Below are positions 1,678 through 62,829 of a stretch of DNA of 64,000 bases, piece by piece; the stretch's first letter is position 1; every line of letters begins with the position of its first letter. The stretch is from Rhodocyclales bacterium (GTDB lineage: Bacteria; Pseudomonadota; Gammaproteobacteria; Burkholderiales; Rhodocyclaceae), in the NCBI GenBank assembly GCA_016235805.1, contig JACRIY010000039.1:1-64000 (forward strand), written 5' to 3'. The notes below the pieces were generated by a model. It was not told the origin of the DNA, made no database searches, and was given only the letters and a program-made list of their open reading frames with translations. The position numbers and the translations under genes are program-made.

Positions 1678-3330
1678 ATGCTGCTGCGTCTGATCATCCG
1701 CGACTTCGTCATCGTCGACCGGCTCGAACTCGAATTCGGCGCCGGTTTCGGCGCCCTCACCGGCGAGACCGGCGCCGGCAAGTCGATCCTGGTCGATGCC
1801 CTGTCGCTGGCCCTGGGCGAGCGGGCCGACGCCGCCGTGGTCAGGAGCGGCGCCGAGCGCGCCGAGATCTCCGCCGAGTTCGACCTCGCGCCCGACGGTG
1901 CGCTGCAGGCCTGGCTGCAGGCCAACGATTACGACAGCGATGCCTGCCTGCTGCGCCGGGTGATCGACAGCGCCGGCCGCTCGCGTGCCTACATCAACGG
2001 CGCCGCGGCGACGCTCGGCCAGTTGCGCGAGGTGGCCGATTTCCTGGCCGACATCCACGGCCAGAATGCGCACCATTCGCTGTTGCGCGCCGACGCCCAG
2101 CGCAGCCTGCTCGACACCCACGCCGGGGCGCAGGCGCTGGCGAAGGACGTCGCCAGCGCCTGGTCCGCGTGGCGCGTGGCGCGCGAGGCGCGACAGGCGG
2201 CCGAAAAGGACGTCGAGGCGACGCAGCGCGAACGCGAATTGCTCGACTGGCAGGTGAAGGAGTTGCTCGCGCTGGCTTTCGATGCGGACGGCTGGCTGGA
2301 AACCGAACAGGAACAGCGCCGGCTGGGCAACGCCAAGGAACTGCTCGACGGTGTCGGCGCCGCCCTGGCGGGGCTGGAGGACGGCGAGGCGGCGAGCCTG
2401 CCGGCGTTGCAGCATGCCGGCGCCCGCCTGATGCAACTCACCGCCTTCGATTCCGCTCTGGGCGAGGCGGCCCAGTTGTTCGAAGGCGCGCTGATCCAGC
2501 TTGAAGAGTCGGCGCTGGCGCTACGGCGTTATCAGGACCGCCTGGAACTCGATCCGGCCCGCCTGGGCGAACTGGACAACCGGATCGATGCGGTGACGCA
2601 GATGGCGCGCAAGCACCGCGTCACGCCCGAGGAATTGCCCGAACTGCTGCAGCGATTGCAATCGCGGCTGGCCGAACTGACGCTGCGCGCCGATCCCGAG
2701 GCGCTGGCCGAGCGCGAGCGTCGCACCGAGGCGGCATTTCGCACGGTGGCGAAGCAGTTGTCTGCGCTGCGCGCCAAGACCGCCAAGTCGCTGGCCAAGG
2801 CCGTCACCGCCGGCATGCAGGAACTGGCGATGGCCGGCGGGCGTTTCGAGATCGCCCTGGAGTCGCTGCCGGAAGGCGCCTCAATCGGGCTGGAGAGTGT
2901 CGAATTCCTGGTCTCGGCCAATGCGGGGCAACCCTTGCGGGCGCTGGCCAAGGTCGCCTCGGGCGGCGAGTTGTCGCGCATCGGCCTCGCGCTGCAGGTG
3001 ATCGCCAGCCAGGCCAATCCGGCCGGCACGCTGATCTTCGACGAAGTCGATGTCGGCATCGGCGGCCGCGTCGCCGAGATCGTCGGCCGCATGTTGCGCG
3101 AACTGGGCAAGAGCCGCCAGGTGCTGTGCGTGACGCACCTGCCGCAGGTCGCGGCACAGGCCGACTGGCAATGGTCGATCGCCAAGCGTACGCGCGACGG
3201 CGCGACGACCTCCGCGGTGAATGTGCTCGACGCCGAAGCTCGCGTCGGCGAGATCGCCCGCATGCTCGGCGGCGAGAAGATCACCGAAACCACGCGCCGC
3301 CACGCGGCGGAAATGCTGGGGCTCGGCTAG
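1678..3330 (+). CDS. recN: DNA repair protein RecN
   Basis: SMC-like ATPase of recombinational repair, 550 residues. Walker A GETGAGKS is at residues 29-36, the ABC signature SGGELSRIGLAL near 430, and Walker B LIFDEVDVGIGGR near 455; the middle is the long coiled-coil region. I chose ATG 1678 because it gives the canonical N-terminus MLLRLIIRDFVIVD right after nadK; the frame is open further upstream but that stretch lies inside nadK. The 3' end overlaps the convergent UPF0016 gene by 4 bp. A copy of the dispersed 24-bp repeat lies inside the coding region at 2505-2528, encoding part of ESALALRRY in the coiled coil. Confidence 0.97.
   Translation: MLLRLIIRDFVIVDRLELEFGAGFGALTGETGAGKSILVDALSLALGERADAAVVRSGAERAEISAEFDLAPDGALQAWLQANDYDSDACLLRRVIDSAGRSRAYINGAAATLGQLREVADFLADIHGQNAHHSLLRADAQRSLLDTHAGAQALAKDVASAWSAWRVAREARQAAEKDVEATQRERELLDWQVKELLALAFDADGWLETEQEQRRLGNAKELLDGVGAALAGLEDGEAASLPALQHAGARLMQLTAFDSALGEAAQLFEGALIQLEESALALRRYQDRLELDPARLGELDNRIDAVTQMARKHRVTPEELPELLQRLQSRLAELTLRADPEALAERERRTEAAFRTVAKQLSALRAKTAKSLAKAVTAGMQELAMAGGRFEIALESLPEGASIGLESVEFLVSANAGQPLRALAKVASGGELSRIGLALQVIASQANPAGTLIFDEVDVGIGGRVAEIVGRMLRELGKSRQVLCVTHLPQVAAQADWQWSIAKRTRDGATTSAVNVLDAEARVGEIARMLGGEKITETTRRHAAEMLGLG
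2505..2528 (+). repeat. Dispersed 24-bp repeat, copy 1 (inside recN)
   Basis: Reads AGAGTCGGCGCTGGCG-CT-ACGGCG. It matches the window-wide core AGTCGGCGCTGGCG-NN-ACGGCG exactly, apart from the two variable bases. Here it is read in a different frame from the copies in nuoG, the DsbA-family gene and the quinone oxidoreductase gene. Confidence 0.85.
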
Positions 3331-3899
3331 TCCGGCAAGGCCGGCGCGCCGAGCATGGTCGCCACGCCGGTGGCGATGAACACGCCGGCGGCGATCCAGC
3401 GGATCAGGTTCAGTGGTAGCCGCTTGGCGAGCTTTTCGCCGATGATCACGGCCGGCACGTTGGCCAGCATCATGCCCAGCGTGGTGCCCAATACCACCGC
3501 GATCAAAGCGCCCTGGAACTGCGCGCCGAGTGCGATGGTGGCGAACTGCGTCTTGTCACCCATCTCGGCAATGAAGAAGGCGATGGTGGTGGTGACGAAG
3601 GCGCCGGCGGGATGGATTTTCGGGTCCTCGTCGAGTGAATCCGGATGCAGCGCCCACAAGCCGAAGGCGATGAAGACGGTGCCGGTGATCCAGGGCAGCC
3701 ATTGCGGCGCGATCAGTTGCGCCAGCCAGACGCCGACCGAACCCGCGAGGGCGTGATTGAGCACGGTCGCGACGAAGATGCCGGCGATGATGGCCCAGGG
3801 CTTGCGCAGGCGCGCGGCCAGCACGAAGGAAAGCAACTGGGTCTTGTCGCCGATCTCGGCGACGGCCACCAGCGTGGTGGAGGTGAGGAAGGCTTCCAT
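3327..3899 (-). CDS. UPF0016/TMEM165 (GDT1) family membrane protein, probable Mn2+ or Ca2+ exporter
   Basis: A 190-residue, six-helix inner-membrane protein. The two family motifs E-x-G-D-K-T are clear: EIGDKT at residues 15-20 and EMGDKT at 112-117, one in each half of the internally duplicated fold. Bacterial members such as Vibrio MneA export manganese, so metal efflux is the likely role (inference from family). It is convergent with recN (4-bp overlap) and lies downstream of fur on the same strand with a spacer of about 90 bp. I looked for a yybP-ykoY manganese riboswitch in that spacer and did not find a convincing one. Confidence 0.9.
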   Translation of the reverse strand: MEAFLTSTTLVAVAEIGDKTQLLSFVLAARLRKPWAIIAGIFVATVLNHALAGSVGVWLAQLIAPQWLPWITGTVFIAFGLWALHPDSLDEDPKIHPAGAFVTTTIAFFIAEMGDKTQFATIALGAQFQGALIAVVLGTTLGMMLANVPAVIIGEKLAKRLPLNLIRWIAAGVFIATGVATMLGAPALPD

Positions 3900-3989
3900 G
3901 GGGGCGTGAGTGTTAGAGGTGCAACGCGATGCGTGGATCGAATTACGCCGCGCATGCCACGCGGTCGTTCGGGGACTAACTGTCTGCGG

Positions 3990-4439
3990 TCAGGTGTTGG
4001 GTTTCCTGCGGTCGGGACAGTCGGGCTTGTTGCACTCGACGTAAAGGTAGAGCGCATGTTCGCGCATAATGAAACCTCGCTCCTCGGCAATCTTGTGCTG
4101 GCGCTTCTCGATCGCCGCGTCGAAGAATTCTTCCACGCGGCCGCACTGAAGGCAGACCAGATGGTCGTGGTGCTTGCCTTCGTTGAGTTCGAAGATCGAC
4201 TTGCCGGATTCGAAATGGTGTCGCTGCAGCAGGCCGGCCTGCTCGAACTGGGTGAGGACGCGGTAGACGGTGGCAAGGCCGATGTCGAGTCCGTCGGCCA
4301 GCAGGTGGCGGTAGACGTCCTCGGCCGTGACGTGGCGCGGCGAGCCTTCATCCTGCAGCTTGTGGAAGAGGTCGAGTATCTTCAGGCGCGGATAGGTTGC
4401 CTTGAGGCCGATGCTCTTGAGATCGTCGGGATGGGTCAT
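3990..4439 (-). CDS. fur: Ferric uptake regulator Fur
   Basis: Iron-responsive repressor of 149 residues. The winged helix is followed by the metal-binding HHDH at residues 90-93, a CxxC at 96-99 (VCLQC), and a C-terminal CxxxxC at 136-141 (CNKPDC). ATG 4439 gives the canonical start [15 protein letters not shown]. The frame is open far upstream but that stretch overlaps bamE and dapB on the other strand and is not coding. It is divergent from bamE across about 140 bp containing AT-rich -10-like elements (TATGAT 4475-4480, TATAGT 4480-4485, GATAAT 4503-4508); the fur-bamE divergent pair is conserved in betaproteobacteria. Confidence 0.97.
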
Positions 4440-4580
4440 TGGCGGGACGCGCAGCGCAGGGCCGAGTGGCCCGCTATGATATAGTTTTCGCCGCCTGATT
4501 GCGATAATGCCTCGGGCCGACATTGCGGCCAGCCAGCACCGATGGCCACCAACGACCCGCGGTTTTTCCGGATTCTCCCG

Positions 4581-16583: not shown

Positions 16584-17036
16584 TCAGGGATTTTGCACCG
16601 CCCGCAGCACCGTCTGCGTCTCGTCGTGGCGAACCCGGTTGGTGAACCACCACAGTCCGGCTTTCTTGATGGTCCAGTCGGCTTCCGTGCCTGCCAGCAG
16701 CAGGGATGCCAGCCGACCCAATGCCGGCTGGTGGCTGACCAGGATGATCGCACCGGGGTGGTCCGGCCAATCGGCGGCGCCGAGCAAGTCGGCGACGCTG
16801 GCGCCTATTCCGAGCTGAGCCTTCACCTTGATCGGCAGGCCGAGCGTCTGCGCGGTCTGCAGGGTTCGCCGCGTCGGGCTCGACAGCAGCGTGACTTTCG
16901 GCAGCTTCTGCCGGCGCAGCCATTCCGCCATTTCCTGTGCGTGCTTCAATCCGCGTGCGGTGAGCTCCCGGTCCGCATCGGCCACCGGGCCGTCGCCGTC
17001 TTTCGCTTCGCCATGGCGCCAGAGTATCAGGTCCAC
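16584..17036 (-). CDS. sixA: Phosphohistidine phosphatase SixA
   Basis: Histidine-phosphatase superfamily member of 150 residues with the catalytic RHGE at residues 7-10 and a second histidine in LVSHQP. SixA proteins dephosphorylate phosphohistidine (ArcB and the nitrogen PTS in E. coli). I chose GTG 17036, which gives MDLILWRHGEAKDGDGP, because AGGAGG lies 5 bp upstream; an ATG at 17069 would place the SD inside the gene. It is convergent with glmM. Confidence 0.88.
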   Translation of the reverse strand: MDLILWRHGEAKDGDGPVADADRELTARGLKHAQEMAEWLRRQKLPKVTLLSSPTRRTLQTAQTLGLPIKVKAQLGIGASVADLLGAADWPDHPGAIILVSHQPALGRLASLLLAGTEADWTIKKAGLWWFTNRVRHDETQTVLRAVQNP

Positions 17037-17139
17037 CCCATCCTCCTTTTTTGTCGAGGCCGGCAGCATATGCCCTCGGCGTGACAGGCGGATGACAGGT
17101 GCGGAGGCGGCGTCGCTGCGCTATCGGGTCGTCTGGCCA

Positions 17140-17163
17140 GGAGTCGGCGCTGGCGGCACGGCG
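17140..17163 (+). repeat. Dispersed 24-bp repeat, copy 2 (intergenic)
   Basis: Reads GGAGTCGGCGCTGGCG-GC-ACGGCG. It lies between sixA and the small reading frame at 17191-17313, outside any recognisable gene. Confidence 0.85.
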
Positions 17164-17190
17164 CGCGAAATCGAAACGTCGTTCGTCGCG

Positions 17191-17313
17191 CTAGTCGCGG
17201 AGCGTGGTGCGGGATTCCAATCGCCGCGAGCGCAGCAATGCCAGCACTTCGATCACTCCCCAAAGCAGCGTCCCCGCCAGTATCAGCGAGCGTTCGGCGA
17301 TCGGCTGGCGCAT
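17191..17313 (-). CDS. Small hypothetical protein, 40 residues
   Basis: ATG 17313 is preceded by AAGGAG with 6-nt spacing, a textbook ribosome binding site. The product reads MRQPIAERSLILAGTLLWG, then VIEVLALLRSRR and an arginine-rich end. Residues 9-27 are hydrophobic enough for one membrane segment, with positive charge after it. I do not recognise a family. It lies 54 bp downstream of another small frame on the same strand, so the pair may be one transcript. It could be spurious; the RBS is the main support. Confidence 0.5.
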   Translation of the reverse strand: MRQPIAERSLILAGTLLWGVIEVLALLRSRRLESRTTLRD

Positions 17314-17367
17314 GGTGTTCTCCTTGCGAACATGGAAGCGGCTGCGGGGGGCGCTGGCTGCGCCCGC

Positions 17368-17457
17368 TCAAAACTCGTCGAGTTGCCAGACGACAACCCA
17401 TGGCTCGTCGAACATGCGGTCAAGTTCTCCGAACAGACGGTCGATCAGGAATTTCAT
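17368..17457 (-). CDS. Small hypothetical protein, 29 residues
   Basis: ATG 17457 follows GGAG with 5-nt spacing. The product begins MKFLIDRLFGELDRMFDEP and ends WVVVWQLDEF: amphipathic, acidic, with two tryptophans. No family recognised. It is the upstream member of a pair with the 40-residue frame at 17191-17313, inside a 600-bp stretch that otherwise holds no gene. Confidence 0.45.
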   Translation of the reverse strand: MKFLIDRLFGELDRMFDEPWVVVWQLDEF

Positions 17458-17635
17458 GGCGATCTCCAGGGGCGCTTAGCGTGCGGACAGCATAGACAGC
17501 CGACGTTTCAGCGCGATTGCGCCTTGATGACGACTTGCTCCGCGGCACGCGATGGCGCGATCGGACGGCATGGCCGACTCCGCCTTGCGCTATGCTGTCG
17601 GCGGTATGTATCCGGTTCGAATCAGGGCAGTGGCG

Positions 17636-18661
17636 ATGACGTGGACAGATATTGACGAGCTCGAAGAACTGGAACAGATCGTGGCAGGTGGCGGCCCCGG
17701 GGTCGAGGTGCGAACCTTGTGCGAAGTCGATTGCGGTCCGCGACGCCTCCCTGTTCATGCGATATGCATCGGGAATCGTGATCCCGCCGCGCCGGCGATC
17801 GGCATCTTCGGCGGCGTGCATGGCTTGGAGCGGATAGGCGTGCAGGTGGTGCTGGCCTTCCTGCAGAGCATCATCAGCAGGCTGCGCTGGGACACCACGC
17901 TGCATCGCCAGCTCGATCAACTGCGTCTCGTATTCGTTCCCGCGTTGAATCCCGGTGGCATGTGGCGGCGCACGCGTGCCAACCCCAATGGCGTCGACCT
18001 GATGCGCAATGCGCCGCTGGAGGCGAAGGAAAAGACTCCGCTGCTGATCGGCGGACATCGACTGGGGCCGCGACTGCCCTGGTTTCGCGGGCCGGCCGGC
18101 GCCGCCCTGGAGATGGAAGCGCAAGCCCTGTGCCGCGTGGTTGACGACGAGTTGCTCAGCCACCATTTCAGCATGGCCGTCGATTGCCATTCCGGTTTCG
18201 GCCTCAGCGATCGACTCTGGTTTCCCTATGCGCATACCGCGCAGCCGATACCGCACCTCGCGGAAATGCATGCACTGCTGGAGATTCTTGACCAGACCCA
18301 CAACCACCATCGCTACGTGTTCGAGCCGCAGAGCCGGCAATATCTGGCGCACGGCGACCTGTGGGACCACCTGTACCTGCGCGCGCTGGATAATCCCGAA
18401 CGGCTGTTCCTGCCACTGACGCTTGAAATGGGTTCCTGGCTCTGGGTCAAGAAGAATCCGCGACAGTTGTTTTCCAGGCATGGCATGTTCAATCCGCAGA
18501 TCGAACACCGCCGGCAGCGGGTGCTGCGGCGGCATCTGGCGTGGCTGGATTTCATGACCCGCGCCGCCAGCGGCAGCGCTCTCTGGCTGCCGACCGGTGC
18601 TGCACGGGAGATGCATGGCCAGGCCGCGATGCGGCGTTGGTATGGCGGGCAGGCGGCATGA
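17636..18661 (+). CDS. M14-type zinc carboxypeptidase-like (succinylglutamate desuccinylase/aspartoacylase-like) protein
   Basis: Zinc ligands of the M14 fold are in place: H62 and E65 in GGVHGLERIG and H185 in VDCHSGFG. The substrate-binding NPGGMWRRTRANPNGVDLMRN follows the family NP(G)G..R..N..G.DLNR pattern, and E264 in LTLEMGS is the likely catalytic glutamate. So a hydrolase of C-terminal peptide or amide bonds is expected; the substrate is unknown. I placed the start at ATG 17636 (MTWTDIDELEELEQ; 341 residues) because a -10-like TATGCT at 17590-17595 makes the upstream ATGs at 17552 and 17606 unlikely; this is uncertain. Its stop overlaps the next gene's start (ATGA). Confidence 0.75.
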   Translation: MTWTDIDELEELEQIVAGGGPGVEVRTLCEVDCGPRRLPVHAICIGNRDPAAPAIGIFGGVHGLERIGVQVVLAFLQSIISRLRWDTTLHRQLDQLRLVFVPALNPGGMWRRTRANPNGVDLMRNAPLEAKEKTPLLIGGHRLGPRLPWFRGPAGAALEMEAQALCRVVDDELLSHHFSMAVDCHSGFGLSDRLWFPYAHTAQPIPHLAEMHALLEILDQTHNHHRYVFEPQSRQYLAHGDLWDHLYLRALDNPERLFLPLTLEMGSWLWVKKNPRQLFSRHGMFNPQIEHRRQRVLRRHLAWLDFMTRAASGSALWLPTGAAREMHGQAAMRRWYGGQAA

Positions 18662-22728: not shown

Positions 22729-23541
22729 TTACGATTTTGTTGCAAGTTCTTTACAGGCCAGCCCCACCTCCGGCACGGGTTCAAGAGTCGGCGCTGGTGC
22801 TACGGCGACCGGTTGCCAGGCGCGAACCAGTTCGAGTCGTCCATCGTGGTGTTCGACGATGGCGGTGCAGCTATCGACCCAGTCGCCGCAATTGACATAC
22901 ACCACGCCATCCACGGCGCGGATCGCGGCGCAGTGGATATGGCCGCAGATCACGCCGTCCAGCCCGCGTTCGCGCACGGCATGGATCAGCGAGTCCTCGA
23001 AATCGAAGACGAAGGACACCGCGCGCTTGACACGGTTCTTGGCATAGCCCGCCAGCGACCAGTAGCCCGGGCGGCGCAGCAGGCGACGCAGGCGGGAGAG
23101 CGATGCATTGATCCGCACCAGCAGGTTGTAGCCGACGTCGCCGATTACCGCCAGCCAGCGGTGGTAGCGCGTCACCTGGTCGTATTCGTCACCGTGCAGC
23201 AGCAGGTAGCGGCGGCCGTCGGCGGTATCGTGGATGTGCTCGCGCTTGACGACGATGTCGCCGAAGGAGAGCCCGTCGTATTCGCGCATGGCTTCGTCGT
23301 GGTTGCCGGGGATCAGCATGACCTGCTCGCCGTGGCGGGCACGGCGCAGGATCTTCTGCACCACGGTGTTCTGTGCCGGTGTCCAGTGTATGGATCGATT
23401 CATGGCCCAGAAGTCGATGATGTCGCCGATCAGGAACAGGTTCTCGCTTTCATAGTCGCGCAGGAAATCAAGCAGGCGATCTGCCTGGCAGCCGCGGGTG
23501 CCGAGATGGACATCTGAAATGAATATGGAGCGGACCTTCAT
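22729..23541 (-). CDS. plcP: PlcP-like metallophosphoesterase (COG2908; LpxH relative)
   Basis: 270-residue calcineurin-like phosphoesterase with a full set of metal ligands: D10 and H12 (FISDVHLG), D40 (LIGDIID), N80-H81 (PGNHDE), H116 (LLHGDE), H201/H203 (CGHIH). It opens MKVRSIFISDVHLGTRGCQA and ends the core with NCGDWVDSCTAI, features I recall from Sinorhizobium PlcP (SMc00171), which cleaves phospholipid head groups to diacylglycerol in phosphate starvation. Automatic annotation would call it LpxH. The choice of PlcP rests on its 4-bp overlap with a GT4 gene and on the island around it, so it is inference. The last 25 residues are a Pro-rich tail partly encoded by repeat copy 3. Confidence 0.7.
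   Translation of the reverse strand: MKVRSIFISDVHLGTRGCQADRLLDFLRDYESENLFLIGDIIDFWAMNRSIHWTPAQNTVVQKILRRARHGEQVMLIPGNHDEAMREYDGLSFGDIVVKREHIHDTADGRRYLLLHGDEYDQVTRYHRWLAVIGDVGYNLLVRINASLSRLRRLLRRPGYWSLAGYAKNRVKRAVSFVFDFEDSLIHAVRERGLDGVICGHIHCAAIRAVDGVVYVNCGDWVDSCTAIVEHHDGRLELVRAWQPVAVAPAPTLEPVPEVGLACKELATKS
22784..22807 (+). repeat. Dispersed 24-bp repeat, copy 3 (antisense within the plcP 3' end)
   Basis: Reads AGAGTCGGCGCTGGTG-CT-ACGGCG, one mismatch (C to T) to the core. It lies in the poorly conserved C-terminal tail of the metallophosphoesterase, where the opposite strand encodes VAPAPTL. Confidence 0.8.
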
Positions 23542-32076: not shown

Positions 32077-32224
32077 GCGATTCAGCGGCACAGGCTAACT
32101 TGAGCGCAGCGAACGTTAAGGCGCGCAGCGCCGGCCGAAGCCATTACGCGGAAGGCCGTTTCGGCTAAGCGCAAGAAGTCGGCGCCCTACAGGGACTTCC
32201 TTCGGTCGCTGGCGCTACGGCGGT
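32077..32224. repeat. Rearranged spacer with an interrupted copy of the 24-bp repeat (copy 4)
   Basis: GAAGTCGGCGC (32177-32187) and GCTGGCGCTACGGCG (32210-32224) are the left and right parts of the repeat, split by 22 bp that contain the small hairpin CCCT-AC-AGGG. The spacer also begins and ends with near-copies of GCGATTCAGCGGCA (about 32078 and 32221). No gene is visible between pstB and the peroxidase gene; the spacer looks like accumulated repeat debris. Confidence 0.5.
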
Positions 32225-33430: not shown

Positions 33431-33887
33431 GGGTGAGTCGGGTGATTTCCTTGCCGGCCTGCACTTCGAAGGCAAGCTGCCATTGGCCCGCCATGTGAAA
33501 CATCATGCCGTCGACGCGAAAGCGCCCGTTACCGAGCGGCTTGATCGTCGGTCGATAGTTCATGCCATGCTTGTGCGCCGGCATGCTGGCATCGGCCTTC
33601 ACCAATTGCGCGGTCGAGACGCCATTCTTGTCGCACAACTGAACTTCCAGCGCGAAATGTCGGGCCATGGGAATCCGGCCGCTTTTCAGGAAAGCGTCCA
33701 CTTGAAGCGGGCGCCAGGCGAGGGTGATTTCGCCCCGGGTGATCGTGGTGCCGTCGGTCGTGGCGGGCGGGCAGGCGGCGTTCGCCGCGCCGGTGATGGC
33801 TCCCAATGCCGTCAGAAACAGGGCGCGGCGCAGGAAATCGCCGTAGCGCCAGCGCCGACTTTTGATGGGTTGCGAGCCCGGGTTCAT
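33411..33887 (-). CDS. YtkA-like (FixH-fold) periplasmic protein
   Basis: 158 residues. After a signal/anchor (FLRRALFLTALGAITGAANA, about residues 20-40) comes one beta-rich domain with the YtkA-like motif MPAHKHGMNYRPTI, which often binds copper through His and Met; MMFHMAGQWQLAFEV follows. The start ATG 33887 overlaps the amidohydrolase stop (ATGA). Residues about 9-16 (KSRRWRYG), just before the signal peptide, are encoded by repeat copy 5, so the repeat has extended or remodelled the n-region. Confidence 0.75.
   Translation of the reverse strand: MNPGSQPIKSRRWRYGDFLRRALFLTALGAITGAANAACPPATTDGTTITRGEITLAWRPLQVDAFLKSGRIPMARHFALEVQLCDKNGVSTAQLVKADASMPAHKHGMNYRPTIKPLGNGRFRVDGMMFHMAGQWQLAFEVQAGKEITRLTHDVQAD
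33839..33862 (-). repeat. Dispersed 24-bp repeat, copy 5 (5' end of the YtkA-like gene)
   Basis: On the minus strand AAAGTCGGCGCTGGCG-CT-ACGGCG, exact to the core. It is translated as SRRWRYG at the n-region of a signal peptide. Confidence 0.85.
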
Positions 33888-34765
33888 TTGGTCGCCATCA
33901 TCGACGCGAACAGGGTTTCGCCGTTGCGCCAGCCGATGCGCTCGGCGATGTCCTTCGGCAGGTCGGCGAGCCACGCGCGCGACCAGTCGGCGTGCTCGGC
34001 GATGTAGTACCAGCGCTCCGGGGTAAACGTGTCGGTACCGACCAGGAAGCGGTCGGGGAACTCGATGAATGCCTCGCGCCAGGCGGGATCGACCTTGCCG
34101 CCGGTGGCGTGGTCGTTGCGGAAGGCCAGGTCCGCATACAGCCTGCGGTGCTTTTTCAGCATCGCGCGCACCGCCTCCGGCCGGTCGAAGCCGGAGTGCG
34201 CCCAGAGGATGCGTGCCTCGGGATCCTGGACCAGCACGCGCTCGATGGCGTCACTGTCGCCATGCAGGTGCAGCCAGAGCTTGTACTGCTTCGCCAGTTG
34301 CACCATGCGCCGCACCACCGGCAGGTCGGCATCCGAGCCATAGACGTGGAACTCGCCGATCGCCGCGTAGCGATACTTCTTCAGGCGCTCTTCAAGGTGC
34401 GGGATGACCGTCTCGTCGCGCACCCAGGTCGAGATCTCGCCGCGCTTGCGGTAGGGCCGCAGCGACGGCACAACGAGGTCCGGCGCTTCGGCGTAAAGCT
34501 TCTGCGTGCCATCGTCGCTGGAACTGGAGACCATGGCCCGCTTCAGCCCGGCCTTGCGCAGTATGGCGATGGCTTCCTTCGGCGGCGTGCGGTCCCAGGC
34601 ATCGTGGCTGTAATGCACGTGGGCGTCGAATATCGGCAGCCTCGGTTCCGCCGCCGCGGCAGGCAGCATCGCCAGTGCGCCGGACAGGGCGACCAGGACA
34701 GTGAGCATGGCGGCCATCGGCTGCGCGCAGGCACCGGCCATCGGTGCGTGTGGGTGAAGCTTCAT
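33884..34765 (-). CDS. Amidohydrolase-family (TIM-barrel) protein, exported
   Basis: 293 residues with a signal peptide (about 1-35, ending LPAAAAEP). The metal-dependent hydrolase start is LPIFDAHVHYSHDAW (H-x-H), with further histidines in EFHVYG, WLHLHGD and WAHSGFD and an Asp in VGTDTF, the amidohydrolase_2 pattern. AAGGAG precedes ATG 34765. It heads a tightly overlapping operon with the YtkA-like protein and di-heme peroxidase. Substrate unknown. Confidence 0.8.
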   Translation of the reverse strand: MKLHPHAPMAGACAQPMAAMLTVLVALSGALAMLPAAAAEPRLPIFDAHVHYSHDAWDRTPPKEAIAILRKAGLKRAMVSSSSDDGTQKLYAEAPDLVVPSLRPYRKRGEISTWVRDETVIPHLEERLKKYRYAAIGEFHVYGSDADLPVVRRMVQLAKQYKLWLHLHGDSDAIERVLVQDPEARILWAHSGFDRPEAVRAMLKKHRRLYADLAFRNDHATGGKVDPAWREAFIEFPDRFLVGTDTFTPERWYYIAEHADWSRAWLADLPKDIAERIGWRNGETLFASMMATK

Positions 34766-34848
34766 GCGTCGCTCCTTCGGATGATGCTTCGGGAAAATTG
34801 AAGTTTGACCGAACCCGATGCAAGTATCCATCGCCACCATGCAGGGCG

Positions 34849-35511
34849 TCAATCGGGTTTCGGGTCTCCGGGCGACGCCGATGGCGGGCAGGATGCGGCG
34901 GCAATTTCTTTCGCCAGCGACCAGGCGACGCGCAGCATGACGTTGAGCAGTTCCTGGGCAATGAGTTCGCGCAGCGGCACCAGGGGCCGCGGAAGTCTCA
35001 CCGAGCGGCTCAGTGATCGCGTTTCCTCGGCATACAGCCGGAACAATTCGTAGAGCAGTTGCGCGAACTCGTCGCGCGAGTAGCTGGCCTGCAGCGCGCC
35101 GCGCAATCGGAGGGGGGCCTCTCCCGCCGCAAAGACCCTCAGCGCGGCGTCGTGCAGCAGCTTGATGCGGCGGGCGCGGATCGGAACGATCTCGTCGTAA
35201 CGAACCACGATCTCGATCGGGAAGTTGCCGACACGGGCCAGGAACTGGCGGTCGATTTCCTTGGTGGCCAGCATCAATTGGGTCAGTGTCGCTTCCCGGT
35301 CCCTTGCTTCCCCGACGGTCGGTTCGCCGGCGCGCAATATGACCAGCGTGTCCTTTTCGACTTCCTTGCCGACATTCAATGCCAGTACCGGCTCGAGATG
35401 GGGCAGCGCAAGTCTTAACGGCAACGCTGCACGCAGCGCCGCCGTGGTGCGCCGGCTATAGGCGTGGAGCATCCGGCCGTTGAGCCGGGCGAGCGCTTTC
35501 GCCCGCTTCAC
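34849..35511 (-). CDS. Hypothetical protein, 220 residues
   Basis: I do not recognise a family. The protein is arginine- and leucine-rich, predicted mostly helical, without a signal peptide or clear membrane segment. It has regions such as KEVEKDTLVILRAGEP, IEIVVRYDEIVPIRARR and YSRDEFAQLLYELFRLYAEE. The start is a GTG at 35511; an internal ATG at 35472 is also possible. It lies between the methyltransferase gene and the amidohydrolase operon, same strand as both, 24 bp after the methyltransferase stop. Codon use is like the neighbours, so it is probably a real, lineage-specific gene. Confidence 0.6.
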   Translation of the reverse strand: MKRAKALARLNGRMLHAYSRRTTAALRAALPLRLALPHLEPVLALNVGKEVEKDTLVILRAGEPTVGEARDREATLTQLMLATKEIDRQFLARVGNFPIEIVVRYDEIVPIRARRIKLLHDAALRVFAAGEAPLRLRGALQASYSRDEFAQLLYELFRLYAEETRSLSRSVRLPRPLVPLRELIAQELLNVMLRVAWSLAKEIAAASCPPSASPGDPKPD

Positions 35512-44438: not shown

Positions 44439-45770
44439 ATGGCCCTGATCGACACCATCAATCCGCTGCTGACCACCGGCTGGACCAAAGGCGATGCCGG
44501 CTGGAGCCTCAAGGACTATGAGGCGCGTGGCGGCTACAAGCAGTGGCGCCGCGTGCTCGAAAGCAAGATGAGCCAGGACGATCTGATCGCGGAGGTCAAG
44601 AAATCCGTACTGCGCGGCCGTGGCGGCGCAGGCTTTCCGACCGGCCTGAAGTGGAGCTTCATGCCCAAGGCGGCGCCGGTGAAGTACGTCGTCTGCAACA
44701 CCGACGAAGGCGAACCGGGTACCTTCAAGGACCGTGACCTGATGCGCTTCGATCCGCATTCCGTGATCGAGGGCATGATCATCGCCGGCTATGCGGTCGG
44801 CGCCAAGGCCGGCTACAACTACATCCACGGCGAAATCTTCGAGGCCTACCAGCGTTTCGAGGAAGCCCTGGACCAGGCGCGTGCCGCCGGCTATCTGGGC
44901 GACAACATTCTCGGTTCCGGTTTCAGCTTCGACCTCTTCGCGCACCACGGCTGGGGCGCCTACATCTGCGGCGAGGAAACCGGCCTGCTCGAATCCATCG
45001 AAGGCAAGAAGGGGCAGCCGCGTTTCAAGCCGCCCTTCCCGGCGAACTTCGGCCTCTACGGCAAGCCGACCACCATCAACAATACCGAAACCTTCGCTGC
45101 GATTCCCTTCATTCTCGGCATGGGCGGTGAGGCCTACCTGAACCTGGGCAAGCCGAACAACGGCGGCACCAAGCTGTTCTCCGTTTCCGGTCACGTCAAT
45201 CGCCCCGGCAACTTCGAAGTGCCGATGGGTACGCCGTTTTCCAAGCTGCTCGAGATGGCCGGCGGCATGCGTGGCGGTCGCAAGCTCAAGGCGGTGATCC
45301 CTGGCGGTTCGTCTGCTCCGGTATTGCCCGGCGAGGTCATCATGGACTGCACCATGGACTACGACTCGATTGCCAAGGCCGGCTCGATGCTCGGTTCCGG
45401 CGCGGTCATCGTCATGGACGAGACGGTCTGCATGGTCAAGGCGCTGGAGCGCCTGTCCTACTTCTACTATGAGGAATCCTGCGGCCAATGCACGCCCTGC
45501 CGCGAAGGCAGCGGCTGGCTCTACCGCGTCGTGCATCGCATCGAACATGGCGAAGGCCGTCCCGAGGACCTCGACCTGCTGAATCGTGTCACCGACAACA
45601 TGATGGGCAAGACCATTTGTGCGCTCGCCGATGCCGCCGCCTTCCCCGTGCGCAGCTTCATCAAGCATTTCAAGAGCGAGTTCGAGTACCACATCGAAAA
45701 CAAGAAGTGCCTGGTCGATCCCGAGATCCAGCGCATGGGTAGCGGCTTCTTCAAGGCAGGGGCAGCGTAA
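44439..45770 (+). CDS. nuoF: NADH-quinone oxidoreductase subunit F
   Basis: 443-residue subunit binding NADH, FMN and cluster N3. NADH/FMN loops are [14 protein letters not shown] and [18 protein letters not shown]; the [4Fe-4S] ligands are in [12 protein letters not shown] plus a distal Cys. Its stop overlaps nuoG by 1 bp. Confidence 0.97.
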
Positions 45771-48106
45771 TGGTCGAAATCGAAATCGACGGCAAGACCC
45801 TGCAGGTCGAAGACGGCAGCACCGTCATCGAGGCGGCGCACAAGCTGGGCACCTACATTCCGCATTTCTGCTACCACAAGAAGCTGTCCATCGCGGCCAA
45901 CTGCCGCATGTGCCTGGTGCAGGTGGAAAAGGCGCCGAAGCCGATGCCGGCCTGCGCCACCATCGTTGCGAACGGCATGAAGGTGTTCACTCATTCCGAC
46001 CTGGCCGTGAAGGCACAGAAGGCGGTGATGGAGTTCCTGCTGATCAACCATCCGCTGGATTGCCCGATCTGCGACCAGGGCGGGGAGTGCCAATTGCAGG
46101 ATCTCGCCGTCGGTTACGGTGAGTCCGCCTCGAAGTACGAGGAAGAAAAGCGCGTCGTACCCGACAAGGACCTCGGTCCGCTGGTGTCGACCGACATGAC
46201 CCGCTGCATCAACTGCACGCGCTGTGTCCGCTTCACCGCAGAGATTGCCGGCTTCATGGAACTCGGCCAGTCCTATCGCGGCGAGCGCGCCGAAGTCATG
46301 CCTTTCATCGGCAAGACCGTGGATACCGAACTCTCGGGCAACATCATCGACCTCTGCCCGGTCGGTGCGCTGACATCCAAGCCCTTCCGCTTCTCGGCCC
46401 GCACCTGGGAACTCTCTCGCCGCAAGTCGGTGAGCCCCCACGATGCGCTGGGCAGCAACCTGATCGTGCAGACCAAGCACGACAAAGTGCTCCGCGTGTT
46501 GCCTCTGGAGAACGACGACATCAACGAGTGTTGGCTGTCGGACAAGGAGCGTTTCTCCTACCAGGGCCTGAGTTCCGCCGACCGACTGACCAAACCGATG
46601 GTGAAGCAGGGCGGCGAATGGAAGGAGGTCGACTGGAACGTCGCCCTCGATTACGCTGCGCACGCGCTACGCGACGTGGCCAAGACTCATGGCGGGGCGG
46701 CGATCGGTGGCCTGCTCAGCCCGCATTCGACGGTGGAAGAACTTTATCTGGCGCAGAAGCTGTTGCGCGGACTTGGCACCGAGAACGTCGATTTCCGTCT
46801 GCGCCAGAGCGATTTTTCGGCCGATGGCAAACGCGCCGGTACGCCGTGGCTGGGCATGAAGATCGCCGACATCAGCCGCCTTGACCGCGTTCTGGTAGTC
46901 GGGTCCTTCCTGCGCAAGGACCATCCGCTGATCGCCCAGCGCCTGCGCCAGTCGGCAAAGAAAGGCGCGCAGGTCAGCATCCTGCACAGCGCCAACGACG
47001 AACTTCTGATCAACCTGACGGCGCGCGCCATCGCTGCGCCGTCGCAACTGCCCGCCTTGCTCGCGCAGGTCGTCAAGGCCGTGTGCGCCCTCAAGGGCGC
47101 AACTGCCGACGCCGCTTTGTCCGCCCTCACGGTATCCGCCGAGGCGCAGGCGATCGCCCAGAGCCTGGCTTCGGGCAGCAATACGGGCGTCCTGCTGGGC
47201 AACTTCGCTCAGCAGCATCCGCAGGCGTCCACCCTGCAGGCGCTGGCCGGCCAACTGGCAAAGGCGCTGGGCGGCAAATTCGGCTTCCTCGGCGAGGCCG
47301 CGAACAGCGTTGGCGGCTATGCGGCCAAGGCCGTTCCCGGTGCCGGCGGACTCAATGCCGTGGCGATGATCAAGGATCCGCGCCAGGCCTACGTGGTTCT
47401 CGGCGCAGAACCCGAACTCGACTGCGCCGATGGTGCCCAGGCATTGGCTGCGCTGCAAAAGTCTGCCGTCACCGTCCTCCTGACGCCATTCAAGTCGCAG
47501 GCCATGCTCGATTACGCCGCCGTACTGCTGCCGGTTACGCCCTTTGCTGAAACCTCGGGCAGCTTTGTCAATACCGAAGGCCGCGTGCAAAGCTTCTATG
47601 CCGCCGCTAAGCCACTGGGCGAAGCCCGTCCGGCATGGAAGGTTCTGCGCGTGCTGGGCAACCTGCTGGCCCTCAACGGATTCGAGTTCAACAGCAGCGA
47701 GGATGTGCGCAGCGAAGCGCTTGGCAGCCAGACCGAGTTCGTCTCCGGCCTCGACAACGGACTTTCGCCGGGTGCCCTGAACCTGTCTGCGAGCGCTGCA
47801 GGCATCGAGCGCGTAACCGACGTACCGATTCATTTTGCCGATGCCCTGGTGCGTCGTGCTCCGGCTTTGCAGCGGGCGGCCGATTCCGCCGCGCCCTCCG
47901 CGCGCATGAATGCTGCGATGTTGTCCAGGCTCGGACTCGCTGCAGGCGATCTTGTGAAAGTCGGCGCTGGCGGCACGGCGAACGCAAGCCTCGTGGCACA
48001 ACTCGACGCCGGGTTGCCCGATGGGGTAGTGCGTGTGGCCGCGGCGCACGCCACCACCGTCGCGGTGGGTCCGATGTCTGCCGTTCTGAGCGTGGAGAAG
48101 GCGTGA
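45770..48106 (+). CDS. nuoG: NADH-quinone oxidoreductase subunit G
   Basis: 778-residue largest subunit. N-terminal ferredoxin domain ([20 protein letters not shown]), then [14 protein letters not shown] and [13 protein letters not shown], followed by a molybdopterin-oxidoreductase-like domain. Repeat copy 6 lies inside it at about residue 730, encoding KVGAGGTA, near the poorly conserved C-terminus. Its stop overlaps the nuoH start. Confidence 0.96.
47957..47980 (+). repeat. Dispersed 24-bp repeat, copy 6 (inside nuoG)
   Basis: Reads AAAGTCGGCGCTGGCG-GC-ACGGCG, identical over all 24 bp to copy 9 on the other strand. Read in-frame as KVGAGGTA. Confidence 0.85.
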
Positions 48107-58437: not shown

Positions 58438-59046
58438 ATGAAGCTCTATTACAGCCCCGGCGCCTGCTCGCTCTCGCCCCACATCGTGCTGGCCGAGGCC
58501 GGCCTCGCCTACAGCATCGAGAAGGTCGACCTGAAGGCCAAGAAGACCGAAACCGGCGCCGACTTCTTCGCCGTCAATGCGGCCGGCTACGTGCCGGCGC
58601 TGGTGCTGGACAACGGCGAAGTGCTGACCGAAGGCCCGGCCATCGTGCAGTACCTCGCCGACCAGGCGCCGGCCAAAAAGCTGGCGCCGCCCGCCGCCAG
58701 CTTCGAGCGCGTGCGCCTGCAGGAAATGCTCAACTTCATTTCCACCGAGGTGCACAAGTCATTCAGCCCGCTGTTCAATCCCGCCACGCCGGAGGAATCG
58801 AAAACCGCCGCGCGCGCGCTGATCGGTCGCCGTCTCGACGTGCTGGAGAAAAAGCTGGCGGGGCGCGACTACCTGCTCGGCGACTTCTCGGTGGCCGACG
58901 CCTACCTGTTCACCGTGCTTAGCTGGGGCCGCATGGTCGGCGTCGATATCAAGGAAGGCCGCCCGCGCCTTGGCGACTACTGGTCGCGCGTCAAGGAACG
59001 GCCCGCCGTGCAGCAGGCCATGAAGGAAGAAGGCCTGATCAAGTAG
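58438..59046 (+). CDS. gst: Glutathione S-transferase, GstA-like (beta class)
   Basis: 202 residues. The beta-class start MKLYYSPGACSLSPHIVLAE includes the active-site Cys10, and GYVPALVLDNGEVLTEGPAIVQYLAD forms the rest of the glutathione site. AAGGAGA precedes the ATG. Its end overlaps the convergent DsbA-family gene by 8 bp. Confidence 0.92.
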   Translation: MKLYYSPGACSLSPHIVLAEAGLAYSIEKVDLKAKKTETGADFFAVNAAGYVPALVLDNGEVLTEGPAIVQYLADQAPAKKLAPPAASFERVRLQEMLNFISTEVHKSFSPLFNPATPEESKTAARALIGRRLDVLEKKLAGRDYLLGDFSVADAYLFTVLSWGRMVGVDIKEGRPRLGDYWSRVKERPAVQQAMKEEGLIK

Positions 59047-59701
59047 CGCCGTCGCCGGCCGCCTGGCGCATCACGCCCAGCAGCGCCTCGGGCGGCTGCG
59101 CCCCGGAGGCCGCCAGCTTCTGGTTGAAGACGAAGAAGGGCACGCCGCTGATGCCCATGCGCCGCGACTGGTCGGCGTCCGCCTTTACCGCTTCGGCATC
59201 TTCGTCACCATCGAGGTAGGCCTTCACCGCCGCGGCGTCGAAGCCGCAGGCGCCGGCCACCTCGGCCAGAACCGCGCGGTCGCCGACGAAGCGGCCGTCG
59301 AGGAACTGCGCGGCGAACAGCGCCTCGACCAGCTTCGCCGTATCGCCAGCGCCGACTCTCTGCGCGTAGTGGATCAGCCGGTGCGCCGCCAGCGTGTTGG
59401 CGCGCAGTTCGATCTTTTCGAAAGCGAAATCCACCCCGGCCGGCTTGCCCGCCTCGCGCACGCGTTGCCAGATTTCGGCCAGGCCCTGCGGCCCGCCGAA
59501 CTTCTTTTCCAGGAAAGGCCGGTAAGGCTCGCCGGCATCGGGCGTATCCGGGTTGAGGAAGAAGGGGTGCCAGTTCACCGTGATTTCACTGTCCGGGTGC
59601 TCCGCGCGCCATTGCGCGAGGGCCTTGTCGAGGTGGCGCTTGCCGATGAAGCACCAGGGGCAGACTACGTCGGATACGACGTCGATTTGCAGTGCGCTCA
59701 T
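59039..59701 (-). CDS. DsbA-family oxidoreductase (FrnE-like)
   Basis: 220 residues without signal peptide, so probably cytosolic. The thioredoxin-fold motif is VVCPWCFIGKRHL near residue 14, and the cis-proline side reads GISGVPFFVFNQK. FrnE-type proteins act as thiol oxidoreductases in oxidative stress. Repeat copy 7 lies inside (encoding RVGAGDTA near residue 115). Overlaps the quinone oxidoreductase gene by 4 bp. Confidence 0.85.
   Translation of the reverse strand: MSALQIDVVSDVVCPWCFIGKRHLDKALAQWRAEHPDSEITVNWHPFFLNPDTPDAGEPYRPFLEKKFGGPQGLAEIWQRVREAGKPAGVDFAFEKIELRANTLAAHRLIHYAQRVGAGDTAKLVEALFAAQFLDGRFVGDRAVLAEVAGACGFDAAAVKAYLDGDEDAEAVKADADQSRRMGISGVPFFVFNQKLAASGAQPPEALLGVMRQAAGDGAT
59336..59359 (-). 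repeat. Dispersed 24-bp repeat, copy 7 (inside the DsbA-family gene)
   Basis: On the minus strand AGAGTCGGCGCTGGCG-AT-ACGGCG, exact to the core. Encodes RVGAGDTA in the same frame as copies 6 and 8. Confidence 0.85.
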
Positions 59702-60684
59702 GCCTTGCCTACCTCCAGAACGATCTTGCCGATATGCTTGCTGGATTCCATTAGTCGGTGCGCTTCCGCCGTCTGCGCCAGCGGGAAGCGGGCGTAGAGG
59801 TGCGGCAGCAGTTCGCCGCGTGACAGCGCGGGCCAGATGTTCGCCACCAGCGCGTCGCGGATCGCCGCCTTCTCGGCCAGCGTCCGCGGCCGCATGGTCG
59901 AGCCGGTGATGGTAAGGCGCTTGATCATCACCGGCATCAGGTCGGCCTCGCCTTTGCTGCCTTCGAGGAAGGCCACATATACCAGCCGTCCGTCGCGGCG
60001 CAGGCTGGCGAGGTTGCGTTGCAGGTAGGGAGCGCCCACCATGTCCAGCACCACGTCCACGCCGCTGCCGCCGGTGATGCGCTTCACCTCCTCGGCAAAT
60101 TCCTGCGTGCGGTAGTTGATCGCATGAGCGGCGCCCGCCGCGCGGCAGAAGGCGGCCTTCTCGTCGTTGCCCACGGTGACCAAGCACTCCACGCCGAGGT
60201 GCTTCGCCAACTGGATGGCGACGAGGCCGATGCCGCTGGAGCCGCCATGCACCAGCAGGCGCTCGTCCTTCTTCAGGTGGCCGAGATCGACCAGGTTGGC
60301 CCAGACGGTGAACCAGGTCTCCGGCAGCGCCGCCGCCGTGGCGTAGTCCATGCCGTCCGGAATCGGCAGCGCGTGGGCGGCGGGGGCCACGCAGTACTCC
60401 GCATAGCCTCCGCCGGGGGTGAGCGCCGTGACGCCAGCGCCGACTTTCCATTGCGTAACTCCTTCGCCGACGGCAGCAACGCGGCCGGCGACTTCGAGGC
60501 CGAGCACGGGCGAGGCATCGGGCGGGGGCGGGTACTTGCCCGAGCGTTGCAGGCAGTCAGGCCGATTCACGCCGGCGCAGACGACTTCGATCAGGATCTG
60601 GCCGGGCGCGGGGCTGGGCGCCGGGCCGTCGGCCAGCGCCATGCACTCCGGGCCGCCGCCCGTGCCGTGTTCGATGAATTTCAT
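59698..60684 (-). CDS. Zinc-less quinone oxidoreductase (MDR family, QOR/PIG3-like)
   Basis: 328 residues. GroES-like N-domain (CAGVNRPDCLQRSGKYPPPP, VLGLEVAGRVAAVG) and Rossmann domain (VHGGSSGIGLVAIQLAKHLG) for NADPH; no structural zinc lobe. I prefer ATG 60684 because GGAG lies 6 bp upstream; ATG 60696 has no RBS. Repeat copy 8 lies inside near residue 82 (KVGAGVTA), in the surface loop between the catalytic strands. Confidence 0.87.
   Translation of the reverse strand: MKFIEHGTGGGPECMALADGPAPSPAPGQILIEVVCAGVNRPDCLQRSGKYPPPPDASPVLGLEVAGRVAAVGEGVTQWKVGAGVTALTPGGGYAEYCVAPAAHALPIPDGMDYATAAALPETWFTVWANLVDLGHLKKDERLLVHGGSSGIGLVAIQLAKHLGVECLVTVGNDEKAAFCRAAGAAHAINYRTQEFAEEVKRITGGSGVDVVLDMVGAPYLQRNLASLRRDGRLVYVAFLEGSKGEADLMPVMIKRLTITGSTMRPRTLAEKAAIRDALVANIWPALSRGELLPHLYARFPLAQTAEAHRLMESSKHIGKIVLEVGKA
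60424..60447 (-). repeat. Dispersed 24-bp repeat, copy 8 (inside the quinone oxidoreductase gene)
   Basis: On the minus strand AAAGTCGGCGCTGGCG-TC-ACGGCG, exact to the core. Encodes KVGAGVTA. Confidence 0.85.
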
Positions 60685-60696
60685 TGAATGCTCCAT

Positions 60697-61874: not shown

Positions 61875-61898
61875 CGCCGTGCCGCCAGCGCCGACTTT
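61875..61898 (-). repeat. Dispersed 24-bp repeat, copy 9 (intergenic)
   Basis: On the minus strand AAAGTCGGCGCTGGCG-GC-ACGGCG, identical to copy 6 in nuoG. Lies 53 bp after the cassette-like gene. Confidence 0.85.
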
Positions 61899-61985
61899 TT
61901 GACCAGCGAAACGAACTTGAATCCGGTTCGAATCCGATCGGCTTCCTCCTAGATTTTCCGCCAGGGAATCCGCCTTGATCTGGCG

Positions 61986-62003
61986 CCGATGTCATAACAT
62001 CGG
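61986..62003 (+). other. Hairpin upstream of the 103-residue gene
   Basis: CCGATGT-CATA-ACATCGG, a perfect 7-bp stem, followed by GCTTTCATTC. It may be a weak terminator or a leader structure 27 bp before the start codon at 62030. Confidence 0.4.
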
Positions 62004-62029
62004 GCTTTCATTCACATCCGGGGTTGCTC

Positions 62030-62341
62030 ATGGAAAACGTTTACCTGCCCATGCAATTGGCGCCAAACAATTTGAACCAGCCGATCCTGCCGAACTGGTC
62101 GTTCAGCCTGTTCAACGTCAACCTCGGCGCGTCGTCGAATGCGGCGATCGAACAGGAAACACTCCAGTCCGTTGGCAGCTACGGCAAGCAGATCGGTCAT
62201 CTGGCCGAGGCGCTGGAACTCGTGATCGGCAAGCTGAACCTGCTCGAAAGCAAGGAATTGTCGCAGTCGGAAAAGGACACCCTTCGGGTCTTCTTGGGCG
62301 ACGTATCGGCCGTCCGCAAGATCAAGGATTCACACGCATAG
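62030..62341 (+). CDS. Hypothetical protein, 103 residues
   Basis: No family recognised. MENVYLPMQLAPNNLNQPILPN is followed by WSFSLFNVNLG and a helical C-terminal half (QIGHLAEALELVIGKLNLLE, LSQSEKDTLRVFLGDVSAVRKI). ATG 62030 is favoured over TTG 62024. It ends 2 bp before the next gene, so the two form a unit. Confidence 0.6.
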   Translation: MENVYLPMQLAPNNLNQPILPNWSFSLFNVNLGASSNAAIEQETLQSVGSYGKQIGHLAEALELVIGKLNLLESKELSQSEKDTLRVFLGDVSAVRKIKDSHA

Positions 62342-62343
62342 GC

Positions 62344-62754
62344 ATGACTACCCCATCCCGACGCGCGCCGGCGCCGAAACCCGAGCCGGCTCCCCGGCGG
62401 TCCGCGCACTCCGACCCGGCGGGCGCCGGGCCCTTCCTTCGCTTCCATCACTCCGCGGCGCTGCGCAAGAAGACGCTGGCGCTGCTCGCTGCCATCGAGC
62501 AGGCCGACGACGCCACGGTGCATCGCGATGCCCTCGCTGAACTGGTGGTGGAACTGACCGGCAGCGGCCTCGATGCCTTTTTCCTCAAGCCGCTCAAGGC
62601 CGCCCGGGCCGGCTTCATCGTCGAACAGTCGGCGGCGCTCGGCATGAAGGGCGTGCAGCAGGTCATGGCTTCGGTCATCCGCCAGATCATCGGGCGCATG
62701 GGCAACCCGCAACTGCTGTCCGTGTCCGGCTCGATCCGGCAGTTCATGCTCTGA
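62344..62754 (+). CDS. Hypothetical protein, 136 residues
   Basis: No family recognised. A Pro/Arg/Ala-rich disordered N-terminus (about 1-30) precedes a helical domain (LRKKTLALLAAIEQADDATVHRDALAELVVELTGSG-type, then FFLKPLKAARAGFIVEQSAALGMKGVQQVMASVIRQII). Start ATG 62344 lies 2 bp after the stop of the 103-residue gene. The pair sits between the cassette-like segment and glpD. Confidence 0.6.
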   Translation: MTTPSRRAPAPKPEPAPRRSAHSDPAGAGPFLRFHHSAALRKKTLALLAAIEQADDATVHRDALAELVVELTGSGLDAFFLKPLKAARAGFIVEQSAALGMKGVQQVMASVIRQIIGRMGNPQLLSVSGSIRQFML

Positions 62755-62805
62755 AGCGCCAGCGGCGGGCTTTCCCGGCGGGCTGGGCGGCGCTGGCCCC
62801 CTGCA

Positions 62806-62829
62806 AAAGTCGGCGCCCGCGCGACGGCG
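62806..62829 (+). repeat. Dispersed 24-bp repeat, copy 10 (diverged, intergenic)
   Basis: Reads AAAGTCGGCGCCCGCG-CG-ACGGCG; 20 of 24 bases match copies 6 and 9. It ends 4 bp before the first possible glpD start codon. Confidence 0.55.

Follow-up and report, generated by a model that had tools for sequence, protein, structure and literature searches.

A dispersed word of about 25 bp as a probable DNA uptake sequence of the genus Sulfuritalea

Words that mark DNA for uptake during natural transformation have been described as confined to two families, the Neisseriaceae and the Pasteurellaceae (PMC5031613, PMC1626085). The DNA uptake sequence (DUS) of the Neisseriaceae is a 12-mer, ATGCCGTCTGAA, with dialects and the receptor ComP; it occurs in many copies, in both orientations and in genes as well as spacers (PMC3630211, PMC7371117, PMC2397512, PMC5031613). 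It is over-represented in core DNA and reduced in islands (PMC7371117, PMC2397512), with a density that drops sharply in the islands of Neisseria (PMC7371117; depletion also in PMC2397512). The uptake signal sequence (USS) of the Pasteurellaceae, AAGTGCGGT or ACAAGCGGT with AT-rich flanks, has a strong consensus, and its copies were found in a gap test to be "not insertions" (PMC1626085). About 65% of USS lie in the open reading frames (ORFs) of a genome that is 86% coding, and uptake sequences show no genome-wide orientation bias, an enrichment in spacers and an intragenic bias (PMC2346458), while the phages of Pasteurellaceae accumulate USS (PMC6776037). We describe here a repeat from a stretch of 64,000 nucleotides of a Rhodocyclales bacterium (GenBank assembly GCA_016235805.1, contig JACRIY010000039.1, positions 1 to 64,000; hereafter the window), which is probably a DNA uptake sequence of the genus Sulfuritalea, its role in uptake being proposed by analogy with these systems. 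Neisseria is a betaproteobacterium, as is the genus that carries the repeat, and the Pasteurellaceae belong to another class of bacteria.

Both strands of the window were scanned with the pattern AGTCGGCGCTGGCGNNACGGCG, allowing up to three mismatches. Nine matches were obtained, of which seven were exact, one had one mismatch and one had two; dinucleotide shuffles of the window (n=100) gave a mean of 0.03 matches and never reached nine. A first reading made from the letters of the window (the sequence-only reading) had listed about ten copies, and all of its places were recovered, including the seven exact copies, the one-mismatch copy at 22786 and the diverged one at 62808. Its starts on the plus strand lay two bases earlier because two preceding bases had been counted in. 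The split copy that it had pointed out is real as well: at 32177-32222 the halves AGTCGGCG and CTGGCGCTACGGCG of the same word are separated by 24 inserted bp. The copies in the window are as follows.

2507..2528, plus strand: exact copy within recN (1378-3330, plus strand; RecF/RecN/SMC domain), codons E S A L A L R R
17142..17163, plus strand: exact copy overlapping an ORF (16828-17655) without Pfam match
22786..22807, plus strand: copy with one mismatch (C13 to T), antisense, near the 3' end of a metallophosphoesterase gene (22729-23541, minus strand)
32177..32222, plus strand: split copy, with a 24-bp insertion that has a short inverted repeat (CCCT-ACA-GGG)
33839..33860, minus strand: exact copy just downstream of an amidohydrolase gene (33884-34852, minus strand)
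47959..47980, plus strand: exact copy in the 3' part of a nuoG-type gene (45770-48106, plus strand), read VGAGGTA
59336..59357, minus strand: exact copy in a DsbA/FrnE-like gene (about 59039-59698, minus strand), read VGAGDTA
60424..60445, minus strand: exact copy in a quinone oxidoreductase gene (59698-60696, minus strand), read VGAGVTA
61875..61896, minus strand: exact copy, probably in a spacer
62808..62829, plus strand: diverged copy with two mismatches, probably in the spacer in front of a gene

The copy at 33839 stands at the presumed start of the next gene, where, judging from the sequence, it reads SRRWRYG in a likely signal peptide.

The repeat is a non-palindromic word of about 25 bp, RRRAGTCGGCGCTGGCGRNACGGCG; the sequence-only reading had correctly called it not a palindrome. 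The consensus (268 copies; 108 spacer copies) was RRR-AGTCGGCGCTGGCG-RN-ACGGCG, followed by a weak A and then C/T, and amounted to about 38-40 bits. The three leading purines were mostly A, the first N was mostly R, and little was conserved beyond about 25 bp. The loci used had partly been picked for exact matches, which sharpened the core and left the flanking positions unaffected. The conserved part is therefore slightly longer than the core first proposed, by the three purines in front, the R within and the two weakly conserved bases behind.

The results of our genome scans, at up to two mismatches, showed that the word is abundant throughout one genus. A genome-wide count had been suggested as a check by the sequence-only reading, and in the window's own assembly (G000, 3.83 Mb) it gave 583 copies (305 forward and 278 reverse) against two (1 + 1) for the reversed pattern. 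We compared 61 genomes, most of them drafts: 31 of the window's genus, 6 of other genera of the family and 24 of other genera of the order. All 31 genus genomes carried the motif, with 46 to 732 copies and 0-3 matches in the reversed controls, so that counts are neither at the level of composition nor limited to the window. Copies numbered 340-732 in 28 of them, followed by 205 in G025, 143 in G021 and 46 in G016. The other genera had 0-2 copies each within the family and 0-4 within the order, with 0-4 in controls. Single exact copies were seen in three of the family genera (G032, G033 and G035; loci L036, L035 and L034), for which a transfer from Sulfuritalea or an early stage of accumulation is possible.

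The density in copy-rich genomes was about 1 per 6 kb, in both orientations. The complete genome G002 had 683 copies at up to two mismatches, with none in the control, and 302 exact copies. An unselected 400 kb of this genome held 35, 21, 13, 6 and 10 copies with 0, 1, 2, 3 and 4 mismatches, respectively, while the reversed control held 0, 0, 0, 0 and 11. The motif was the top over-represented word in 100 kb of G002, and no comparable word was found in 80-100 kb each of three other genera (G032, G034 and G036), where dialects were rejected for this reason, nor in 104 kb (partly N) of G016. A search of named genomes for exact matches returned at least 118 stretches, with organism labels taken as deposited. 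Among the matches listed, 27 were labelled Sulfuritalea, 45 Rhodocyclaceae bacterium and 19 Rhodocyclales bacterium; the 27 further labels were uncultured beta proteobacterium (6), Sulfurisoma (5), Burkholderiaceae (4), Gammaproteobacteria (4), Propionivibrio (2), Rugosibacter (2) and Thiobacillus, Casimicrobiaceae, Betaproteobacteria and Proteobacteria (one each). The motif-bearing genus is most likely Sulfuritalea (Rhodocyclales).

Comparison of orthologous genes, also among the checks first suggested, showed that the copies in conserved genes arose mostly in place and not by insertion. The gene recN was found in 29 of the 31 genus genomes, and its site is occupied in all 29 (21 exact, 8 with 1-3 mismatches); the recN of outgroup G046 has equal length and five mismatches at the site. 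The Leu codon CTA within the site is retained in 26 of the 29 genomes. The segment covering the motif had the lowest third-codon diversity of 529 eight-codon segments of recN. Column by column the difference is less marked, the mean diversity of conserved synonymous columns being 0.16 inside (7 columns, one of them just past the motif) versus 0.36 outside (242 columns). The ferrochelatase gene (PF00762) carries the motif in 3 of 20 genomes, exactly in G002 and with one mismatch each in G014 and G023. The other 17 genes lack it, with net length unchanged and partial matches already in place. New DUS have been argued to come largely via recombination rather than point mutation (PMC2397512), which would also fit a gain that involves several differences at once, as in the ferrochelatase gene.

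Other alignments mostly agreed with an origin in place, the exceptions concerning mainly linkers and distantly related homologues. The quinone oxidoreductase copy (60424) is gap-free against 4dup and has a one-residue gap shortly before it against 2j8z, and the alignment of the DsbA-like copy (59336) shows a two-residue difference nearby. Homologues spanning the copy were found for 12 of 176 coding copies in 323 kb of outgroup DNA, of which 8 were gap-free and the rest had gaps of 1-5 residues, and for 18 of the 176 in G016, of which 13 were gap-free. Two further sites, both near gene ends, gave irregular alignments, and some genomes have hairpin-forming insertions inside the motif there.

The position of the copies was analyzed in G002, from which the island and position data come. 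Its exact copies, 148 forward and 154 reverse, are interleaved and spread along the chromosome. The forward to reverse counts were 82:70 in 0-1.9 Mb, 18:16 in 1.9-2.44 Mb and 48:68 in the rest (100 sites per strand were listed by position, so that the last region was obtained by subtraction), and strand ratios at up to two mismatches in 400 kb were 19:20, 6:8 and 8:8. Strong polarity is absent, and the strand bias that the sequence-only reading had proposed to look for, judged here along the coordinates of the genome, is at most weak; a weak polarity may exist. The strand counts led us to reject a strongly polar word of the type of Chi or of the FtsK-orienting polar sequences (KOPS).

A 594-kb sample of G002, which omits two islands and about 114 kb of which had been picked for lacking exact copies, held 99 copies. 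With gene positions from a simple gene finder (our own script), 69 were inside genes and 30 outside or across a gene edge. Bases outside predicted genes make up 10.9% of the sample, which corresponds to a 2.8-fold enrichment in spacers (p 1e-7). The use of frames inside genes was uneven (chi-square p 1e-6); VGAGxTA and AVxPAPT were the commonest, and the SRRWR frame was nearly absent (1 of 69). Unlike the uptake sequences with hairpin-forming inverted pairs (PMC2346458), the copies sampled from G002 for their consensus included a single pair within 400 bp, and motif pairs as terminators were rejected because close inverted pairs were not found in that sample.

At up to three mismatches the motif is absent from the two longest intervals between the exact copies listed for G002 (0-2.44 Mb): 1.896-2.014 Mb (117.9 kb, GC mostly 52-61%) and 460-520 kb (60 kb, GC 56-64%; L317-L319). 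The copies expected at up to two mismatches were 19.6 and 10.0, respectively; because both stretches were chosen for lacking exact copies, we also give the expectation for non-exact copies only, 10.0 and 5.1. The first has conjugation genes (TraC, TraN and TraI_2 among 9 proteins scanned). The 8 proteins scanned in the second include a Mu-type transposase, an E2/ThiF/JAB protein and two sulfatases. Near-copies are present in the next two longest gaps, which are mostly of normal GC content. The 118-kb stretch (L311-L316) was also seen to hold F-type type IV secretion system genes, an OLD-like nuclease, UvrD-like helicases and a 1666-aa protein without Pfam match, and the 60-kb stretch an outer membrane efflux protein; the E2/ThiF/JAB protein is a fusion of a known defence-type architecture.

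The motif was also found on phage contigs. A scan of IMG/VR gave at least 120 viral stretches with the motif; among the matches listed, the A-rich prefix is present in most, as is a purine at the first N. Homology between these contigs and the chromosomal DNA compared is almost nil. On 27 chosen viral contigs of 20 kb or more (931 kb in total), 77 copies were present at up to two mismatches and none in controls. Each contig had been chosen for one copy, and the remaining 50 therefore give about 1 per 19 kb. These counts refer to contigs of unassigned host. At many viral loci, among them L344, L357, L375, L402 and L441, a phage gene that reads as methylase-like has a copy at its 3' end, with an AVQGDMLLPAN-like tail after it.

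Two dense arrays of the motif appear integron-like from their sequence. Locus L063 (JALHPU010000019.1:80001-86122) has 9 copies at up to one mismatch in 6.1 kb among attC-like sites, with the motif in 5 of about 10 units that share little except attC and motif. The overlapping loci L359 and L453 (L453 being the first 14 kb of IMGVR_UViG_3300009945_000063) have near-identical units with 5 copies in all, and from each copy it is 57 bp to the attC-like site that follows; phage tail genes lie on the same contig. Across 4.0 Mb our own attC detector reported 35 sites, and groups of at least three occurred in these two arrays only. In several near-geneless cassettes of L063 and L453, the motif copies and the attC-like sites point the same way.

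In three genomes the motif has eroded. In a recN tree, which is based on one gene and leaves several forks open, G016, G021 and G025 branch within the genus. G021 has 25 exact copies, 51 with one mismatch, 67 with two and 87 with three; G025 has 38 exact copies among 205 at up to two mismatches and 305 at up to three; and G016 has 46 at up to two and 95 at up to three. Reversed controls at up to three mismatches gave 3, 4 and 8 in the three genomes. This erosion looks like a loss of the maintaining force, apparently three times.

Taken together, the copy number, the origin in place, the spacer enrichment and the distribution in islands and phages support the uptake signal among the options raised by the sequence-only reading, and we consider it probable that the repeat is a DNA uptake sequence of Sulfuritalea. 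With DUS and USS it has in common the copy number, both orientations, origin in place, spacer and frame bias, reduction in acquired DNA and the presence of transformation genes, the last of which is not specific: comEC was found in 30, dprA above cut-off in 28 and a pilin N-terminal motif in 31 of the 31 genus genomes. Like DUS, it stands in both genes and spacers and is scarcer in islands; unlike DUS, it has another sequence, about 25 bp instead of 12, a lower density, a host order Rhodocyclales and a receptor that is only a candidate. Like USS, it has a very strong consensus, an intragenic orientation bias, an accumulation in phages (PMC1626085, PMC2346458, PMC6776037) and an A-rich stretch beside a GC core; unlike USS, its fully specified core is longer, and sequence similarity was not seen. 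Compared by eye, the consensus matched neither the DUS 10-mer GCCGTCTGAA itself nor the USS cores, both as given in PMC3630211.

We propose that DNA bearing the word would be preferred by a DNA receptor of the transformation machinery, for which a minor type IV pilin acting together with ComEC is the likeliest candidate. Incoming fragments with a better copy would then replace resident alleles more often, and biased uptake together with homologous recombination would create copies and keep them at places where the protein or spacer can accommodate them. The action of the word at uptake, the pilin receptor and the drive are all inferred.

Several observations weigh against an uptake sequence. 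The word is longer than the DUS or USS core, and its density is below the 1 per 400-1100 bp of Neisseria (PMC7371117). The strand ratio shifts slightly along G002 (0-2.44 Mb versus the rest, p 0.04; 0-1.9 versus 1.9-3.8 Mb, p 0.08), 22% of the conserved synonymous columns of recN beyond the motif match the mean invariance of those within it, and one of the 18 comparisons with G016 has an 8-residue gap in an Ala/Pro linker; several of the coding-copy comparisons are of low identity, and recN and one other gene are counted twice in them. As comEC was also found in 25 of the 30 other genera, its presence does not discriminate. G016, G021 and G025 retain both dprA and comEC, the latter cut off by the end of a contig in G021. 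A loss of competence, which erosion should bring with it, was therefore not seen in these genes; their loss does not explain the erosion and was ruled out as its cause. G005 (99% complete, 732 copies) has only a weak dprA match, and the HHH_3 profile matched mainly one protein of about 800 aa per genome, which we take to be Tex-like, so ComEA is not established. In the search for a ComP-type receptor, the profile PF11773, which is ComGE and not the ComP family, had no match above cut-off in the 61 genomes. A partial comparison of pilins (13 stretches and three of G002) found relatives of the FimT-like and PilE-like pilins of G002 in G000 and G017, and of the PilE-like pilin also in G011.

We put at even chances a wider proposal: that the repeat belongs to a self-DNA recognition system for natural transformation, the third to have evolved independently and found in an environmental genus of betaproteobacteria, that it is the most fully specified uptake word known, and that it is exploited by mobile passengers. 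Integron cassettes would bear copies of their own that serve as an entry pass, the word would build up in temperate phages, and conjugative elements, which have no need of it, would lack it. A third origin outside host-associated bacteria would mean that uptake specificity evolves repeatedly and independently of mucosal life, and the three natural erosions would offer an independent replicate for the question of molecular drive versus selection for recombination. The exchange of integron cassettes would then be connected with a sequence-specific uptake system, and Sulfuritalea, which is known largely from metagenomes, would be expected to be naturally transformable, with the word as a tag for its transformation. 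A 14-base string of the word was absent from the literature searched, which included few subscription papers or preprints, and among the search results listed no report tied Sulfuritalea, Rhodocyclales or Rhodocyclaceae to uptake sequences.

The alternative that survives best, although we think it unlikely, is a mark of self DNA that acts inside the cell: a recombinase, nuclease or defence complex would spare or recombine marked DNA, as RecBCD does with Chi, and phages and cassettes would pass as self. The exact copies on phage contigs and integron-like cassettes, and their absence from the stretch with conjugation genes, agree with such a mark, as does the weak difference in strand ratio along G002. 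Prophages are known to accumulate uptake sequences (PMC6776037), however, so the phage copies do not favour this mark over uptake. The word resembles Chi (of RecBCD or AddAB) in being over-represented, and its core has GCTGGCG, close to the E. coli Chi (overlap GCTGG.G). It differs from Chi as generally known in having no strong strand polarity and in its length, the roughly 25 specified bases far exceeding Chi words of 5-8.

A binding site for a nucleoid, condensation or segregation protein, one of the options of the sequence-only reading, is improbable. The copies are spread along the chromosome and confined to one genus, and their spacing in one 200-kb region of G002 was slightly more even than random (38 intervals, coefficient of variation 0.77). 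Such a site does not account for a conservation of 38-40 bits, about three times the 13-14 bits that we estimate are needed for 600 sites in 4 Mb, nor for the absence of strong polarity or the presence of copies in integron-like cassettes and on phage contigs, and erosion in three lineages would be odd for one that maintains the chromosome.

A very small mobile repeat that copies itself to new sites, the third of these options, is disfavoured and has in our view very little chance of being correct, because most copies in conserved genes took the place of sequence of equal length and conservation falls off beyond about 25 bp. A very strong consensus is also seen in young transposons, and a few sites have hairpin insertions or, in one case, the 8-residue linker gap. 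Against this, the ferrochelatase site was newly occupied without net change in length, empty sites already share parts of the motif, the copy compared with 4dup is gap-free, as are most of those compared with the outgroup and G016, and the insertions observed split the motif rather than consist of it. In these same comparisons, insertion relative to empty sites, as in small mobile repeats (repetitive extragenic palindromes, REP; Rickettsia palindromic elements, RPE; miniature inverted-repeat transposable elements, MITE), was not found. The word shares its hundreds of dispersed copies with REP and bacterial interspersed mosaic elements (BIME), but it is not palindromic, lies inside conserved genes and has no consistent insertion signature. 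Shared protein motifs, codon use or high G+C content, to which a GC-rich word read mostly in two frames might point, can be dismissed as an explanation in view of the reversed-pattern and shuffle controls, the other genera without the word, the spacer enrichment and the retained CTA codon of recN.

Hairpin insertions into the motif are real but rare. A search for split motifs gave 13 candidates, several of which were an intact copy beside a partial one, while seven control patterns gave 0-2. Copies at 32177-32222 of the window, at about 3914 of L073 and in L275, L271, L277 and L289 contain small insertions, some of which have inverted repeats and whose lengths of 21-39 bp are multiples of three, as if the motif or its permissive surroundings were an insertion target. 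At about 4034-4110 of L144, a MITE-like hairpin of about 60 bp (AGGAAAAGGGGCC...GGCCCCTTTTCC) breaks a copy of the motif.

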